Program-made: the position numbers and the translations under genes
Notes under the pieces: model-generated
Told to the model about the DNA's origin: nothing
The model's input: the letters and a program-made list of their open reading frames with translations, nothing else
The model's database searches: none
IMG/VR virus record: IMGVR_UViG_3300046519_000339
Span: 1-40,530 of that record
DNA: 40,530 bases
Direction: 5' to 3' (one strand)
Source: a virus
Shown: positions 8,308 to 14,818 of the stretch, one piece after another
How the letters are laid out: each line of letters opens with the position of its first letter
How positions within the stretch are numbered: the stretch's first letter is position 1

Positions 8308-8816
8308 TGGCCGCCCGCCCATCACCCCTAGCGCGCGTCGAGCGTATGCCCGAACCCACCAGCTGGGCGGACGACGACGTGATGACGCTTGCCGAGTACA
8401 TCGCCGTGTTCTGGCCGGCCGGCCCGCTGACCGTGTCGTCGCTCCGCACTGAGATTACCCGGGGCCGGTTGACCGTGGCCAAAATGCGCGGGCTATTGTG
8501 GGTCACACCGGCGAGCGTCCGCGCGCTCTTTCAACCTAAGCCCGCTCAACCATGTCCAGACGCTCCAAAGGCCCGCGCCTCCACCTCCGCTCAGGGCGCG
8601 TTGATCGCCGCACCGGCCGGCCGATCGCCGACATCTGGTACATCCGAGACGGACAGACTGAGATCAGCACAGGCTGCGGTCCTGATGGCCTCCATGGCCC
8701 TGAGGGGGCCGAGGCCCAGCTCGCCGCCTACATCACCGAAAAATGGGCGACGCGGGCCCCGCCGGAAGAAGCTGTCGACGATCGTCAGCGCCGAAGTGAT
8801 CCAGCTAAGGTCCTGA
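8307..8816 (+). CDS. Helix-turn-helix protein, candidate excisionase, overlapping the integrase gene
   Basis: It starts at ATG 8307 (overlapping the previous stop) or at ATG 8346. Residues about 26-72 (MTLAEYIAVFWP, SSLRTEITRGRL, LLWVTPASVRALF) fit an Xis/MerR-like winged helix, in which the recognition helix is followed by a short wing. Position immediately before int supports a recombination-directionality role. The frame stays open to 8816, so the last 88 codons lie inside int in another frame. That C-terminal part is Pro/Ser/Arg-rich and looks like a by-product of int coding. It may be dispensable, or the overlap may tie the two expression levels together. Confidence 0.7.
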   Translation: MAARPSPLARVERMPEPTSWADDDVMTLAEYIAVFWPAGPLTVSSLRTEITRGRLTVAKMRGLLWVTPASVRALFQPKPAQPCPDAPKARASTSAQGALIAAPAGRSPTSGTSETDRLRSAQAAVLMASMALRGPRPSSPPTSPKNGRRGPRRKKLSTIVSAEVIQLRS

Positions 8817-9808
8817 TCGCCGAGATCCTGGCGCTGTACCTGGCCGAGAAGGCCCCCAAGCTTGCGCGGCCGAAAGACGCCGACAGCCGCGTCCGGACCC
8901 TCATGCCGTTCTGGAGCGACAAGTTCCTCACCGACGTGCGCCGGTCGACCTGCCAGGCCTATGTCGCCCTGCGCACCAGCCAGACGATCAAGAGCGCCCG
9001 CCACGGCGCCGCCCTGGAGAAGAAGGTCAGCGACCAGGCCGCCCGGCGCGAGCTCGAGGACCTGTCGGCCGCCATCGGCTACTGGAATGGCGAATACCCG
9101 CTGACCAACCGGCCGAAGGTCTGGATGCCGGACAAGGCCGAGGGGCCGCGCGACGCGCTTACCCGGGGCCAGGCGGCGCGCCTGCTGATGGCCGCGCGCG
9201 GCTATCGCTGGGAAAAGCAGCCCAGGGGCCAGATGGGCTGGACTCGCCTGGGCGGCAGCGCGCGGGCCAACCGCGCCCACCTCAAGCGCTTCGTGCTGAT
9301 GGGCGTCTACACCGGCACCCGGCCGGGCGTGATGCCCAAGCTGCTCTGGTCGGAATCGCCGGTCCAGGCCTGGGCGGATCTCGACGCCGGCATGATCTAT
9401 CGGCGCGGCAAGCGCGAGAAGGATCACAAGACCAAGCGCAGGCCGATCGTGAAGCTGCCGGGCCGCCTGGCCGCCCACATGAAGCGCTGGGCGGTCATGG
9501 ACGAGAAGAAGGCCAAAGCCCTGAAGGCGGACGATCTGGAGATGGCCAACACCATCCTGCATCACGGCGGCGCGCCGATCGCCGGCCGGATCCGCACGGG
9601 CTTCGAGAACTGCGTCGCCGACGCCGGCCTCGACGGCGAGATCTCACCGCACTGGATGCGCCACACCTGCGCGACCTGGCTGATGGAAGCCGACGTCCAG
9701 GTCTGGGAGGCGGCCGCCTATGTCGGCATGACCGCCAAGATGCTCGAGGACAACTACGGCCATCACCGGCCGAGCCACCAGGCGCGCGCGCGAAAGGCTC
9801 TTGGATGA
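8552..9808 (+). CDS. int: Tyrosine recombinase, phage integrase
   Basis: A 418-residue site-specific recombinase of the lambda-Int superfamily, which integrates the phage at attB and excises it. The N-terminal region (about 5-65, starting RGRVDRRTGR-like) is the arm-binding/entry domain typical of alphaproteobacterial prophage integrases. The core-binding domain is about 85-180. In the catalytic domain, Arg257 (TGTRPG), the HxxR pair His367/Arg370 (SPHWMRHT) and Tyr402 (DNYGHH) are visible, so it looks active. A basic beta-hairpin (HKTKRRP, about 292) fits the catalytic Lys region. ATG 8552 has no clear ribosome-binding site and lies inside the preceding HTH gene. AttP lies about 880 bp downstream. 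Confidence 0.95.
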   Translation: MSRRSKGPRLHLRSGRVDRRTGRPIADIWYIRDGQTEISTGCGPDGLHGPEGAEAQLAAYITEKWATRAPPEEAVDDRQRRSDPAKVLIAEILALYLAEKAPKLARPKDADSRVRTLMPFWSDKFLTDVRRSTCQAYVALRTSQTIKSARHGAALEKKVSDQAARRELEDLSAAIGYWNGEYPLTNRPKVWMPDKAEGPRDALTRGQAARLLMAARGYRWEKQPRGQMGWTRLGGSARANRAHLKRFVLMGVYTGTRPGVMPKLLWSESPVQAWADLDAGMIYRRGKREKDHKTKRRPIVKLPGRLAAHMKRWAVMDEKKAKALKADDLEMANTILHHGGAPIAGRIRTGFENCVADAGLDGEISPHWMRHTCATWLMEADVQVWEAAAYVGMTAKMLEDNYGHHRPSHQARARKALG

Positions 9809-10587
9809 GCCAGCGCGACGATTTCATCGTCTGGCTCAGCCATACAAGTTACCTCGGCTGGGCGCGGTTGTACGTGGACATGTTAAAGGCGGTGGCATGG
9901 CCGATCGTCGCCATCACGGCCTTTCTAACGTTCCGGAAGGGCTTGAACGCGCTTTTAACCCGAGCCATCAAACTGAAGGGCTTCGGTGGCGAGGCGGAAT
10001 TTGGCGATCTGAACCAAGCGGCCGTGGCAGTGGCTGGGGCGATTGATCAGGCCAACGAAGACAGGCCTGCCGAACCCTTGACGCCCTTAGCAGAAGTTCC
10101 CGCTGAAGAGGGCCAGGCGGACGCTCCAGGACCTGCTGATGAACCAGGGCCAGCACGACCAGACCAGCATCCTCGGCATGGTCGGCGCAGCCTAAACGAG
10201 TACCTGATCCCGATCTTTGGTCCAGCAGAGGTCGGAACCTGGGCCGTTGAGGAGGACGGCTACGCTTCAGCCGGGATGTCTCGAGGTGCGATTAGGACGG
10301 CTTGGTTCCATGTCTCGAACCGTCTCATTGCTCTCGCCGATCCGCAAACCGCAGGTTCCGCGCCCATCCACGATCTAATAGATAAGCTGACAAGCCAACA
10401 TCTGATCAGTCTGGAAACGCGGGACATGGTGAGAAGCCTATATGCGCTCTACCTCGCCGCCCACGAAGGACCTCCCCAAAGTCTATCGAAGCAAGCCCTG
10501 TCCAGCATCAGCAAGTCGGCCCGCCAAATCGTCACTCGCATCAATGTCGAAGCCGGGGATGCATTCTTGAACAAGCCCTCCACCTAG
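9805..10587 (+). CDS. Membrane-anchored moron candidate between int and attP, 260 aa
   Basis: The ATG overlaps the int stop (ATGA). One transmembrane helix (about 25-43), followed by FRKGLNALL and KGFGGEAEFGD, recalls a widespread class of small bacterial anchor proteins in which a membrane helix is followed by a basic turn and a short strand. A Pro/Glu-rich linker (about 85-128) leads to a helical C-terminal domain (130-260) of unknown type. Codon choice is less GC-biased than in the neighbours. Genes between int and att are often lysogenic-conversion cargo, so a role in host phenotype or phage exclusion is inferred, not shown. Confidence 0.75.
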   Translation: MSQRDDFIVWLSHTSYLGWARLYVDMLKAVAWPIVAITAFLTFRKGLNALLTRAIKLKGFGGEAEFGDLNQAAVAVAGAIDQANEDRPAEPLTPLAEVPAEEGQADAPGPADEPGPARPDQHPRHGRRSLNEYLIPIFGPAEVGTWAVEEDGYASAGMSRGAIRTAWFHVSNRLIALADPQTAGSAPIHDLIDKLTSQHLISLETRDMVRSLYALYLAAHEGPPQSLSKQALSSISKSARQIVTRINVEAGDAFLNKPST

Positions 10588-10689: not shown

Positions 10690-10739
10690 CTTCGTTGACA
10701 TCGAGGGGGTCACAGGTTCAATCCCTGTCGCGTCCGCCA
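10690..10739 (+). other. attP core: 3' half of tRNA-Val(GAC)
   Basis: The sequence folds as the 3' half of a tRNA. The anticodon stem is CTTCG/CGAGG (10690-10694/10702-10706) with loop TTGACAT and anticodon GAC at 10697-10699. The variable loop is GGGTC and the T-arm is ACAGG-TTCAATC-CCTGT. The acceptor 3' strand is CGCGTCC, followed by G and CCA (10729-10739). No normal D-arm lies upstream. Phages that integrate in tRNA genes carry exactly such a 3' half, so that the host gene is rebuilt on insertion. A 7-mer GGACGCG at 10648-10654 complements the acceptor strand but is too far away for a functional tRNA. The core lies inside the phage, which argues that the window is not an integrated copy with its borders here. 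Confidence 0.85.
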
Positions 10740-10880: not shown

Positions 10881-10904
10881 TTGACTCTTATGTCAACCTA
10901 AATG
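10881..10904 (+). promoter_or_regulatory. Probable promoter with TTGAC-N6-GTCAA dyad
   Basis: TTGACTC (10881-10887) resembles a Caulobacter-type -35, and CCTAAATG (10897-10904) resembles its GCTANAWC -10 with a short spacer. TTGAC and GTCAA also form a perfect inverted repeat (10881-10896) that could be an operator. It lies directly before the LexA box and the zinc-ribbon/SRAP operon. Confidence 0.45.
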
Positions 10905-10905
10905 A

Positions 10906-10920
10906 GAACATTAGCGGAAC
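10906..10920 (+). promoter_or_regulatory. LexA (SOS) box, alphaproteobacterial type
   Basis: GAAC-N7-GAAC (GAACATTAGCGGAAC) is the exact reverse complement of the alphaproteobacterial LexA consensus GTTC-N7-GTTC. It starts 28 bp before the ATG of the first gene of an operon that ends with an SRAP (SOS-response-associated) gene, and overlaps the region just downstream of the predicted -10. Repression by host LexA and induction by DNA damage are the natural reading. Confidence 0.75.
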
Positions 10921-10933
10921 ATCGGAGCCGCCA

Positions 10934-11257
10934 ATGTCTAGCTCAAGCGCAGGTCAGCGCCCGCCACCGCACGCCCCTACTCGCCCCCTGTTCGTCCCTG
11001 AAGACGCCGAGGGCTTCACCCTGGCTGACGCTGTCGCGCCGGGGCAGCACATTGAGACACTGTGTCCATGCGGTCGACGAGCTGAGTTCGACGCGACCGC
11101 ATGGATCGCGCGAGGACTGGGGTTTCGGCCGTTGCAGAGCTTTTCCGGTACGCTGCGTTGCCCGTGCGGCGATCGGCGGGCAGTATTCCAGGTCTGGCCC
11201 GGCGAGATCGGAAGCTCCGGATTGACGACCCGGTCCGCCGCGGAACTCTACGACTAA
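10934..11257 (+). CDS. Zinc-ribbon protein 1 of SOS operon, 107 aa
   Basis: The start chosen is ATG 10934, just after the LexA box. The frame is open upstream to 10793, but that would read through the promoter. The product has a Pro-rich N-terminus, then CPCGRRAEFD (about 45-54) and, some 27 residues later, LRCPCGDRR. These two knuckles make a zinc ribbon. The spacing and the intervening helix (WIARGLGFRPLQSF) match the two genes that follow. Small proteins with paired CxxC or CxC knuckles of this form are common in alphaproteobacteria and generally uncharacterised. It overlaps the next gene by 1 bp (TAATG). Confidence 0.75.
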   Translation: MSSSSAGQRPPPHAPTRPLFVPEDAEGFTLADAVAPGQHIETLCPCGRRAEFDATAWIARGLGFRPLQSFSGTLRCPCGDRRAVFQVWPGEIGSSGLTTRSAAELYD

Positions 11258-11640
11258 TGCCTGAACCCAGCGCCAGCGATCGTCGTAAGGCGGCCGCGCT
11301 CGATCCCTGGTTCGCAGAGGCGCGGTTGGTCGACGCCCTGGAGCGGGGATGGGAGATTCATTTCCGTTGCCAGTATTGCGGGACGGCCAAAACGTGGCGT
11401 CGCGACACCATGCTCGGCCGGGCCAAGGGCCTGCTGAACGCGACCATGACCCAGCTCCAGGCCCGTGCGCTCTGTCCGCGCTGCCCGGGGCGGATGCCGA
11501 TCGTGTGGATGTCGGGGGTCATTGATCCCGGCGACGCCGAGGGTCGCCGATCGCGATTGATCGAGACCCTGCTCGAGGCGGGCCTCACCCCGGGCGACTA
11601 CGGTTACGCCTGGCGGCGGCCGCCGGCCGGGACCTGGTGA
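11257..11640 (+). CDS. Zinc-ribbon protein 2 of SOS operon, 127 aa
   Basis: ATG 11257 overlaps the previous stop. It has a basic N-terminus, then CQYCGTAKTWRRDTMLGRAK (about 38-57), and CPRCPGR about 37 residues after the first knuckle. The helix between the knuckles corresponds to that in genes 1 and 3. The C-terminus is an acidic helix plus a GDYGYAWRRPP tail not found in the others. It is a likely paralogue of its neighbours, extended at both ends. DNA or RNA binding is plausible but not shown. Confidence 0.75.
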   Translation: MPEPSASDRRKAAALDPWFAEARLVDALERGWEIHFRCQYCGTAKTWRRDTMLGRAKGLLNATMTQLQARALCPRCPGRMPIVWMSGVIDPGDAEGRRSRLIETLLEAGLTPGDYGYAWRRPPAGTW

Positions 11641-11643
11641 CCC

Positions 11644-11850
11644 ATGGCCGACATGGATCCTCGGACGGGACGGCTGTCGTCCCTGACGATCTGGTGCGTC
11701 TGTGGCTACCGCGTCACCTGGCCCGCCCCGATGATCATCGCCCGGGTCGGGGCGTGGAAGCGCCCGCACGACCTGCGCGTCGGCCTTACGTGCTCGGCGT
11801 GCGGGGCCAAGGGGCCGCCCAAGGTGAATATCAGCGGGGACACACGCTGA
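11644..11850 (+). CDS. Zinc-ribbon protein 3 of SOS operon, 68 aa
   Basis: ATG 11644 lies three bases after the previous stop. It is the shortest version: WCVCGYRVTW (about 17-26), a connecting helix with IIARVGAWKRP, then LTCSACGAKGPP (about 48-59). This is close to the common alphaproteobacterial zinc-ribbon form in which the second knuckle reads CxxCG. The three tandem genes look like products of old duplications that have diverged strongly. Confidence 0.75.
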   Translation: MADMDPRTGRLSSLTIWCVCGYRVTWPAPMIIARVGAWKRPHDLRVGLTCSACGAKGPPKVNISGDTR

Positions 11851-11891
11851 ATGAGTCGGATCGCTCTCAGGACGTCTCTCGTTGGTCGTCC

Positions 11892-12101
11892 ATGCTTACG
11901 CCCAACGGATACACGTTCCAGGTCAAGACGCGCGGTCAGACGTGGTCGGCGACATGGCGACTGGACGGCAAGGATGTTTGCGTCGACAGCGCCTACGGGA
12001 GCCGGCGTATCGCCCGCGGCCGCCGACCAGCAGAAAAGGTCGCGGAAGAAGCGCTCACCGACCTCGTGCAGCGCTGGGCTTCGGTTCCTGCGGGCCACTA
12101 G
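11892..12101 (+). CDS. Small hypothetical protein, 69 aa
   Basis: ATG 11892 is the only ATG that gives a plausible N-terminus. No strong ribosome-binding site precedes it, and 41 bp separate it from the previous stop. The product looks like a small beta-rich domain (YTFQVKTRGQTWSATWRLDG) followed by a GSRR-containing helix (AEKVAEEALTDLVQRWA). An Arg/Ser-rich frame (11851-12138) overlaps it but looks like a shadow. Function unknown. Confidence 0.55.
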   Translation: MLTPNGYTFQVKTRGQTWSATWRLDGKDVCVDSAYGSRRIARGRRPAEKVAEEALTDLVQRWASVPAGH

Positions 12102-12134
12102 GCGAGATCGGGCGCCGGAGATAGGCTCTCCGCC

Positions 12135-12323
12135 ATGAGCCCGCGCAAGCCCAAGCCCAACCGGCCGCCCGATTTCGAAGATCACGGAGACGGCCCCGCG
12201 CCCGAGGGCGTCAAGGTGCGCGCCGAAGAGGCCTACTACGCCGAGCTGGCCGTCGACGCGATGGGCGACCCCATCCATGCCCCGCGCGGCTGGTGGCATC
12301 TCAAGCTTTGGAAGGGTCCCTGA
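12135..12323 (+). CDS. Small hypothetical protein, 62 aa
   Basis: ATG 12135, with GGAGATAGG upstream at a somewhat long distance. The product has a basic Pro/Lys-rich N-terminus, an acidic middle and a Trp-rich C-terminus (PRGWWHLKLWKG). No family is recognised. It ends 3 bp before the SRAP gene and is probably co-transcribed with it. Confidence 0.6.
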   Translation: MSPRKPKPNRPPDFEDHGDGPAPEGVKVRAEEAYYAELAVDAMGDPIHAPRGWWHLKLWKGP

Positions 12324-12326
12324 TCG

Positions 12327-13079
12327 ATGTGCAATCTTTACGCCCTGCGCAACAGCCAGGCCGCGATCGCGCGGGCCACCAAGGCGCTGCTCGACAACTT
12401 GGGCAACATGCCGCCGCTGCCGGGGATCTTTCCGGACTATCCCGCGCCGATCGTCCGCACCGCCTCTACGGGGGAGCGCGAGATGGCGATGGCCCGGTGG
12501 GGCATGCCGTCATCCAGAAAGGCCGTGCTGGACGCCGCCACCAAGCGCGCCGATAAGCTCCGCGCCAAGGGCGGCGAAGTCGATTTCGCCGAGCTCCTGC
12601 GCCTTGAGCCAGACAAGGGCACGACCAACGTCCGGCGCACGGAAAGCCGCCACTGGGAGCCCTGGCTGGGCGTCGCCAATCGATGCCTCGTGCCGTTCAC
12701 CTCCTTCAGCGAGCCAGACCAGGTCGGCGGCACGCTCAAACCGATCTGGTTCGCGTTCGGCGAAGAACGCCCGCTAGCCTTCTTCGCCGGCGTCTGGACG
12801 CCTCACGCCGGCGTGCGGATGAAGAGCAAGGGCTGGGAGGAGATCGAGGCCTTCGGCTTCCTGACGACCGACGCCAACGCCGAGGTCGGCGCGTTCCACG
12901 ACAAGGCGATGCCGGTGATCCTTACCAGCGAGGAGGAGCTCGACGTCTGGATGCGCGCGCCCTGGAGCGAAGCTCGGGCGCTTCAGCGGCCGCTTCCCGA
13001 CGGATCGCTGCAGGTCGTGGCGCGGGGCGCGAAACTCGACGGGGACGCTCCGGAGCCGCCGGCCGATCTCTTACTTTGA
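12327..13079 (+). CDS. SRAP (HMCES/YedK) family protein, abasic-site shield
   Basis: A 250-residue member of the SOS-response-associated peptidase family. The known members form a thiazolidine link to abasic sites in single-stranded DNA through Cys2. Cys2 is present (MCNLY). The other active-site residues can be placed: Asn101 in TTNVRRTES, Glu129 in [11 protein letters not shown] (family form CLVP..GFYEW), and His191 in [10 protein letters not shown]. The Tyr-Glu-Trp part of the third motif is altered to Ser-Glu-Pro, but the Glu is kept. Size matches the family. It ends the LexA-box operon, fitting a DNA-damage role during phage induction. Its 3' end overlaps the converging minus-strand gene by 9 bp. 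Confidence 0.9.
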
Positions 13080-13871: not shown

Positions 13872-14106
13872 GGTTGATCTCCTTCAGCTGGCGGTCGACG
13901 CCGGCGAGCGCCGAGACGGCGGCGGTGGCGGCCTGGGCGCCCTCGGTGTTGAGGTTGGCGGCCGCGCCGGCGTCGCGGGCCGATTCGGTCTTGGGCTTCT
14001 CCGCCGCGACGCCCTGGTGGCGGGCCCAGCCATAGGCCCCGCCCAGGAGCGCCAGGCCGATCACCGCGCCGGCGACGGGAACCACCCAGGGCGGGGCCAG
14101 GGTCAC
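13690..14106 (-). CDS. Inner-membrane spanin (Rz-like)
   Basis: The GTG start at 14106 overlaps the lytic enzyme's stop (GTGA). The 138-residue product has one N-terminal transmembrane helix (about 7-26) and then a periplasmic helical segment (about 35-95) rich in Ala and charged residues. This is the i-spanin layout. It is shorter than lambda Rz (153 residues) but in the normal range. Its 3' part is shared with the outer-spanin lipoprotein frame. The C-terminal 25 residues, Gly/Pro-rich, come from the shared region. Confidence 0.7.
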   Translation of the reverse strand: MTLAPPWVVPVAGAVIGLALLGGAYGWARHQGVAAEKPKTESARDAGAAANLNTEGAQAATAAVSALAGVDRQLKEINHALDLEAARDAGDVPALSDGVVDRMHRSDERVCGSVPALCAEAGPSQGGGSGNPAPDRDP

Positions 14107-14462
14107 GTCACGACCTCGAGCTCGCGATCGCCGCTCTTCCAGACCAGCTCCCGCACGGCGCGCGGCAGGATGATGCAGCCATGCGAGGCCGTGCCCGGGT
14201 TGGCGATGCTGTCGCCGTGGATCCGGAAGGCCGAGCGGCCGAGCGCCTGGTGGCCCACCGGCTCCAGCTTCAGGGCGTAGGGCCCGACATTGGCGCTGTC
14301 GTACCGCTCGGTGATCTTCCAGCGGCCGGCCGGGATCGGACCGACGCCGGCGGCCGACTGCAGGTCCGGATTGTTCTTGCCGCGCCCGAGGCCGGAATAG
14401 CCTCGCGACACGACCTGGCCAGCGCGCGACAGCTCGCCGGCGCTCTGATCCCATTTCCACAT
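14103..14462 (-). CDS. DUF2778 (Tlde1-like) peptidoglycan enzyme, probable endolysin
   Basis: ATG 14462 has AGAGGAG upstream, and the longer open frame to 14678 is a shadow of the holin gene. The 119-residue protein begins MWKWDQSAGELSR and has the family pattern YSGLGRGKNNP (22-32), GPIPAGRWKI (41-50), and the active site IHGDS...ASHGC with His82 and Cys96. This is the L,D-transpeptidase-like fold known for acting on peptidoglycan stem peptides. It is the only wall-active enzyme in the lysis block, so it probably acts as endolysin. There is no signal peptide, so it should depend on the holin. Confidence 0.85.
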   Translation of the reverse strand: MWKWDQSAGELSRAGQVVSRGYSGLGRGKNNPDLQSAAGVGPIPAGRWKITERYDSANVGPYALKLEPVGHQALGRSAFRIHGDSIANPGTASHGCIILPRAVRELVWKSGDRELEVVT

Positions 14463-14489
14463 GGGCGTCTCCTCTATGTCTGGGAAGGG

Positions 14490-14506
14490 TGCGAGCGGCG
14501 CTCGCA
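14490..14506. repeat. 17-bp palindrome, copy 3 (intergenic)
   Basis: TGCGAGCGGCGCTCGCA, perfect arms, in the 80-bp gap between the holin and lytic-enzyme genes. Confidence 0.85.
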
Positions 14507-14508
14507 TG

Positions 14509-14526
14509 GGCGGCCGATCGGCCGCC
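14509..14526. repeat. 18-bp perfect palindrome GGCGGCCGATCGGCCGCC
   Basis: It lies two bases after palindrome copy 3 in the same gap. It could form a hairpin or a protein-binding site affecting the balance between holin and lytic enzyme. Confidence 0.6.
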
Positions 14527-14542
14527 GGCAGCGGTAAGGGGC

Positions 14543-14818
14543 TCAGCCCTTGACCTGGCCCACGTCGTCGGGCGCGGCCTCGGCCAGGATCCGCAGCTTG
14601 GATTGGTTGTGGGTGGTGCGCCACAGGCGCCACAGGGCGCTCAGGACGATCGGCAGCAGGCCGGCGACCGCCGCCCACTTCTCGGTGGTCAACACGCCAA
14701 AGGCCACGGCAACGCCGCCCAGGGCGGGCACGAGCTGGCCGATCAGGGTCTCGGCCTGGGCCATGCCCGGGTCTGCCGAGACGAAGATCTTCGGCTTGAT
14801 GATTTCAGGGTCGGTCAT
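14543..14818 (-). CDS. Holin candidate, 91 aa
   Basis: A small protein with a polar N-terminus (1-22), two hydrophobic segments (about 24-43 and 48-63) and a basic C-terminal tail (LWRLWRTTHNQSKLR). Size, topology and its position before the lytic enzyme and spanins fit a class II holin. The ATG overlaps the previous stop by 4 bp. There is no family-specific motif, so the call rests on topology and context. Confidence 0.7.
   Translation of the reverse strand: MTDPEIIKPKIFVSADPGMAQAETLIGQLVPALGGVAVAFGVLTTEKWAAVAGLLPIVLSALWRLWRTTHNQSKLRILAEAAPDDVGQVKG

Follow-up and report, generated by a model that had tools for sequence, protein, structure and literature searches.

The window, that is the whole stretch of 40,530 nucleotides of IMG/VR virus record IMGVR_UViG_3300046519_000339 analysed here, carries on its plus strand a compact gene cluster beginning with zr1 (10934..11257), which encodes a zinc-ribbon protein of 107 amino acids with two CPCG knuckles. 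The start of zr2 (11257..11640, 127 amino acids) overlaps the zr1 stop at position 11257, and zr3 (11644..11850, 68 amino acids) encodes the third zinc-ribbon protein. They are followed by two conserved genes that had been missed in the initial, sequence-only reading of this DNA: orf4 (11892..12101), the 69 amino acid product of which has the motif RGQ.W..W..GKDVC, and orf62 (12135..12323, 62 amino acids). The last gene (12327..13079) encodes a protein of the SRAP (HMCES/YedK) family and its 3′ end at 13079 abuts a convergent gene. Pairwise dN/dS ratios of 0.38 for zr1, 0.08-0.23 for zr2, 0.08-0.25 for zr3, 0.29 for orf4 and 0.19 for orf62, with SRAP falling within the overall range of 0.08-0.38, show purifying selection and indicate that all of these genes encode real, conserved proteins.

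The carrier looks like an excised phage genome. The window encodes terminase, a lambda-type portal protein, capsid and a tyrosine integrase (8552..9808, plus strand; PF00589 5.3e-7, phrog_1 1.9e-22), and the attP core (10710..10739, plus strand) lies internally, between int and the gene cluster. The core sequence corresponds to the 3′ end of tRNA-Val in Caulobacteraceae genomes and occurs once in the window. The location of the operon beside attP, proposed previously, was borne out by a prophage contig of 46 kb (G001:C59) that has the tRNA-Val 3′ sequence at both ends, contains a related module directly inside one of them and adjoins an intact tRNA-Val of the neighbouring contig. An ORF of 260 amino acids with an N-terminal hydrophobic stretch (9805-10587, plus strand) is placed between integrase and attP and gave no match in Pfam, PHROG or PADLOC. 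A protein with a Tlde1/YkuD L,D-transpeptidase domain is encoded on the minus strand (14106-14678) near the phage lysis end. An Rfam search of the region gave nothing.

Relatives of zr2 and zr3 were found in IMG/VR prophage contigs and in Caulobacter genomes. The zr3 profile matched in 43 of 348 Caulobacteraceae genomes (approximately 12%); three sampled genomes (G001, G180 and G294) have two module copies each, and remoter single-ribbon relatives occur in other Alphaproteobacteria. The phage collection gave no match to zr2 or zr3, and the plasmid search none to zr3. The same gene order, sought as a test of the sequence-only reading, recurs: an upstream GAAC-N7-GAAC box, a first gene (slot 1), zr2, zr3, optionally orf4 (13 matches over loci) or a DUF3606-like gene, orf62 and SRAP. 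The orf62 gene (18 matches over loci) is nearly always immediately 5′ of SRAP, often tightly spaced. The constant core consists of zr2-zr3 (21 and 27 sequences aligned, respectively), whereas slot 1 varies, so the three tandem ribbon genes named in the sequence-only reading are not the conserved unit. Slot 1 is occupied by zr1, by slot1c, which is devoid of Cys knuckles, or by a third family, slot1b, and profile comparison showed these families to be mutually unrelated; slot1b and slot1c were discarded as ribbon relatives of zr1, hhalign giving at most 4%. The slot is filled most often by slot1c (L028/L029/L037-L040/L080-L088), a conserved family of about 100 amino acids with the motif VPxFEGDxAWFEVExVxGKPWxxWRAVRQVEPP. 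For zr1 one independent relative was found, in the same slot in G180 (appearing as L062 and L090).

In the window the predicted LexA box GAACATTAGCGGAAC (10906..10920, plus strand) has the form GAAC-N7-GAAC and is separated by 13 bp from the zr1 ATG at 10934. Read on the other strand it is GTTC-N7-GTTC, the LexA consensus of Caulobacter (PMC12700426, PMC9578287). An approximate promoter (10881..10905, plus strand) is formed by TTGACT as the −35 motif, a spacer of 17 bases and the start of the −10 motif (gaGAAC), which overlaps the box. The exact box before the first ATG was thus confirmed, and taken alone it is not significant because 0.77 occurrences are expected by chance in the window, where one is present. 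Approximately 136 occurrences were counted in one genome of 5.6 Mb, the reversed pattern being not much rarer, and a single box was therefore discarded as evidence. The weight is carried by the related modules. All 21 related modules with slot 1 have a box no farther than 300 bp ahead of their first gene, with a local background of about 0.024 expected per 300-base window, and each of five permuted control patterns was found at none of the same 21 modules; an exact promoter box kept across relatives is what characterizes the alphaproteobacterial LexA regulon. Alignment of 24 upstream regions placed TTGACT at a constant distance before the box in most. The first half of the box coincides with the −10 motif in most modules (TTGACT-N17-gaGAAC), and in many modules 12-15 bases separate the box from the ATG. 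At this fixed spacing behind the −35 motif the box would cover the −10 motif. Such a layout would be anticipated for a LexA-repressed promoter, and both LexA binding and induction are predicted from it.

Boxes of the LexA type also precede, at a distance of about 100 bases, the genes of another, distinct zinc-ribbon family of Alphaproteobacteria (VFCWCNRCGHNA...MRCSSCGSKDVATRPAWPS; L099, L101, L102, L106 and L107, at about 1350-1680). Three of these loci have exactly the box known from C. crescentus ccna_01391/ccna_02355 (PMC12700426).

Each of the three ribbon proteins has two CxC/CxxC knuckles. The AlphaFold (AF2) models of Zr2 (pLDDT 90) and Zr3 (pLDDT 79) share the order strand-knuckle-strand-helix-helix-knuckle-strand and show the two knuckles with beta hairpins typical of the zinc-ribbon fold, which for Zr1 was assigned from its sequence. 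Profile-profile comparison gave 82% for zr1-zr2, 86% for zr2-zr3a and 94% for zr2-zr3c, scores reached by none of 60 column shuffles that preserved Cys, as was the case for zr1-zr3c; zr1-zr3a scored 54%, a value reached by one of the 60 shuffles. When Cys residues were masked, the cross-similarities among zr1, zr2 and zr3 fell to noise and the zr3a-zr3c similarity persisted. Of the earlier claim that three consecutive genes follow one plan, the paired knuckles and the alike models of Zr2 and Zr3 stand, and similarity beyond the Cys pairs was lost on masking. The common plan is real, and common descent of all three ribbons is likely on these comparisons. Profile searches of Pfam, PHROG, NCBIfam, PADLOC and PDB yielded no usable match for the zr1-zr3 families, and Foldseek yielded no PDB or viral match to the folds of Zr2 and Zr3 at E ≤ 0.001.

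The SRAP protein of the window matches PF02586 with 1.1e-19 (71.3 bits at a curated cut-off of 27.1) and phrog_1599 with 4e-35 over its full length, and its nearest solved structure is PDB 2AEG from Agrobacterium (8.8e-61). All four residues named in the sequence-only reading are in place: Cys2, Glu129 and His191 occur without exception in the 33 aligned module-type SRAPs, and Asn lies in an NVR motif aligned with 2AEG. In YedK the Cys2/Glu/His residues carry out cross-linking to abasic (AP) sites (PMC9436759), and by analogy with YedK/HMCES the window protein most likely caps abasic sites in ssDNA via Cys2. It departs from the known family members in that its lineage is divergent and carries an insertion ahead of the Asn motif. 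Two divergent lineages, A (17 proteins, including that of the window) and B (16 proteins), occupy the SRAP slot, and the residues are kept in both. The modules L031 and L032 illustrate a swap, their zr2 and orf62 genes being 98% identical each, but their SRAPs only 36%.

SRAP was found within 3.5 kb of zr2/zr3 at 33 of the 36 places with enough flanking sequence, all of them located via zr genes and not via SRAP, except the window itself. Together with the box data this upholds the central claim of the sequence-only reading, an operon that has a LexA box in front, encodes zinc ribbons and has SRAP as its last gene, since the three elements co-occur far beyond chance. The arrangement sets the window SRAP apart from most sampled alphaproteobacterial SRAPs. 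Among 30 high-scoring loci of canonical alphaproteobacterial SRAP the box was present at four, a frequency matched by control patterns, and the ribbons had no relatives there; 18 lower-scoring alphaproteobacterial SRAP loci gave no ribbon match either. Box plus ribbons as a general arrangement of alphaproteobacterial SRAPs was consequently discarded. Several other SRAP-bearing alphaproteobacterial phages have an upstream box, and in L004, L005, L007, L008 and L024 two-knuckle proteins are encoded between the box and SRAP, an arrangement that is a less strict form of the module plan. In L111 (PP438429.1 10014-16751), a phage that bears the name of Synechococcus, a module-type SRAP (55%) is accompanied by a ribbon gene resembling zr3c and by GAAC-N7-GAAC boxes, and a second such phage (OM868082.1) shares this SRAP match. 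Synechococcus may have been wrongly assigned as host, or the culture may have contained an alphaproteobacterium from which the phage stems.

We consider the cluster to be, with fair probability, a mobile LexA-repressed cassette for DNA damage tolerance, carried as accessory cargo by a temperate Caulobacteraceae phage next to its att site. The operon would be silenced in the lysogen by a dimer of host LexA bound to GAAC-N7-GAAC over the −10 motif. On DNA damage, cleavage of LexA driven by RecA would release the operon, whatever the state of the repressor that belongs to the phage. SRAP would then cap abasic sites in ssDNA through Cys2 and guard gapped host DNA as well as, after induction, replicating phage DNA, so that both phage and host ssDNA may be protected. 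The zinc ribbons would assist as helpers that bind nucleic acid or SRAP, most likely helpers common to both SRAP types; that they are partners of SRAP is plausible. They may also act alone, because the MOBQ conjugative plasmid of Caulobacter sp. FWC26 carries box-slot1-zr2 and the chromosomal locus L093 carries ribbon genes, in both cases with no SRAP nearby.

The operon might instead serve the phage itself, shielding its ssDNA replication intermediates during SOS-triggered induction, with the copies outside phages being remnants or captures. The nature of the carrier agrees with this, as does the presence of the module at the att/lysis end of several different prophages, where some copies adjoin endolysin genes. 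The explanation is nevertheless unlikely, since the module possesses a LexA-type promoter of its own, adjacent to att and distant from structural and lysis genes, and occurs also near conjugation genes (beside a TrbI gene at L080), in part on the FWC26 plasmid, and in chromosomes with no phage genes nearby (at L089 near htpX and ribonucleotide reductase). Given prophages, a conjugation-gene neighbourhood, a plasmid and chromosomes as its locations, cargo of mobile elements fits better than a phage replication operon. The suggestion that the operon is active on phage induction holds to the extent that a LexA-type promoter lies beside attP; with such a promoter of its own the cassette should be switched on by DNA damage of any kind, phage induction being no special trigger, copies outside phages exist, and it is not a lytic module.

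Still less probable is a role in counter-defence against host systems that attack incoming DNA, for example with SRAP shielding abasic sites made by glycosylases or with the small ribbons acting as restriction-alleviation proteins. Glycosylases that act against phages by making abasic sites have been described (PMC11078745), and the variable first slot resembles mobile-element cargo. The Lar model TIGR03655, which like the zr3 relatives describes small two-knuckle Cys proteins of prophages, weakly matches 8 of 27 zr3 relatives (best E 7e-4), but these matches are probably driven by the Cys pairs, the Zr3 protein of the window gave no match and the operon context of Lar is different. Moreover, the PADLOC search gave nothing, LexA control suits damage better than entry, and loss of YedK in E. 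coli left Brig1 immunity unchanged (PMC11078745). A regulatory switch, in which SRAP as an autopeptidase or damage sensor would act with the ribbons on phage induction, follows a 2013 proposal that SRAP of phages senses damage and switches lysis (PMC3765255) and is very improbable, as later biochemistry assigned AP-site cross-linking chemistry to SRAP (PMC9436759) and the module is also present where no phage lysis pathway is seen nearby.

The damage-tolerance cassette has precedents. SRAP genes have been described in SOS neighbourhoods and temperate phages, and two Zn-ribbon-like domains have been reported beside SRAP plus Ku (Aravind et al. 2013, PMC3765255). Small Zn-ribbon-like proteins encoded next to SRAP are the common feature; the published ones are tied to Ku, and the resemblance of the two ribbon sets is one of description. 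The zr models gave no match at 27 alphaproteobacterial Ku loci, so that within Alphaproteobacteria equating one set with the other finds no support. The operon shares its GTTC-N7-GTTC box with the Caulobacter LexA/SOS regulon (PMC12700426, PMC9578287) and differs in being carried by mobile elements. It would be absent from the regulon of the model organism, because the C. vibrioides control genome gave no SRAP match. No description of the cassette was found in the main texts of openly readable papers. It is a variation on the known SOS-linked SRAP neighbourhoods, and more general than the sequence-only reading had reported.

A further-reaching idea, which we put forward tentatively and hold to be rather doubtful, is that zr2-zr3 encode dedicated partners of either divergent SRAP. 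A self-contained machine under LexA control for the protection of abasic sites and ssDNA, unseen in model organisms, would then be spread in Caulobacteraceae by phages, plasmids and possibly further mobile elements. The zinc-ribbon families described here have no Pfam or NCBIfam model, and the cassette offers a compact system for asking what helps SRAP at bacterial abasic sites. Caulobacter has a mature SOS toolkit, yet its model strain appears to be devoid of SRAP. If the favoured explanation of a damage-tolerance cassette is true, the host SOS regulon has a branch that belongs to mobile elements and in which SRAP is interchangeable, and genes for tolerating DNA damage may be passed among the relatives of Caulobacter by viruses and plasmids.
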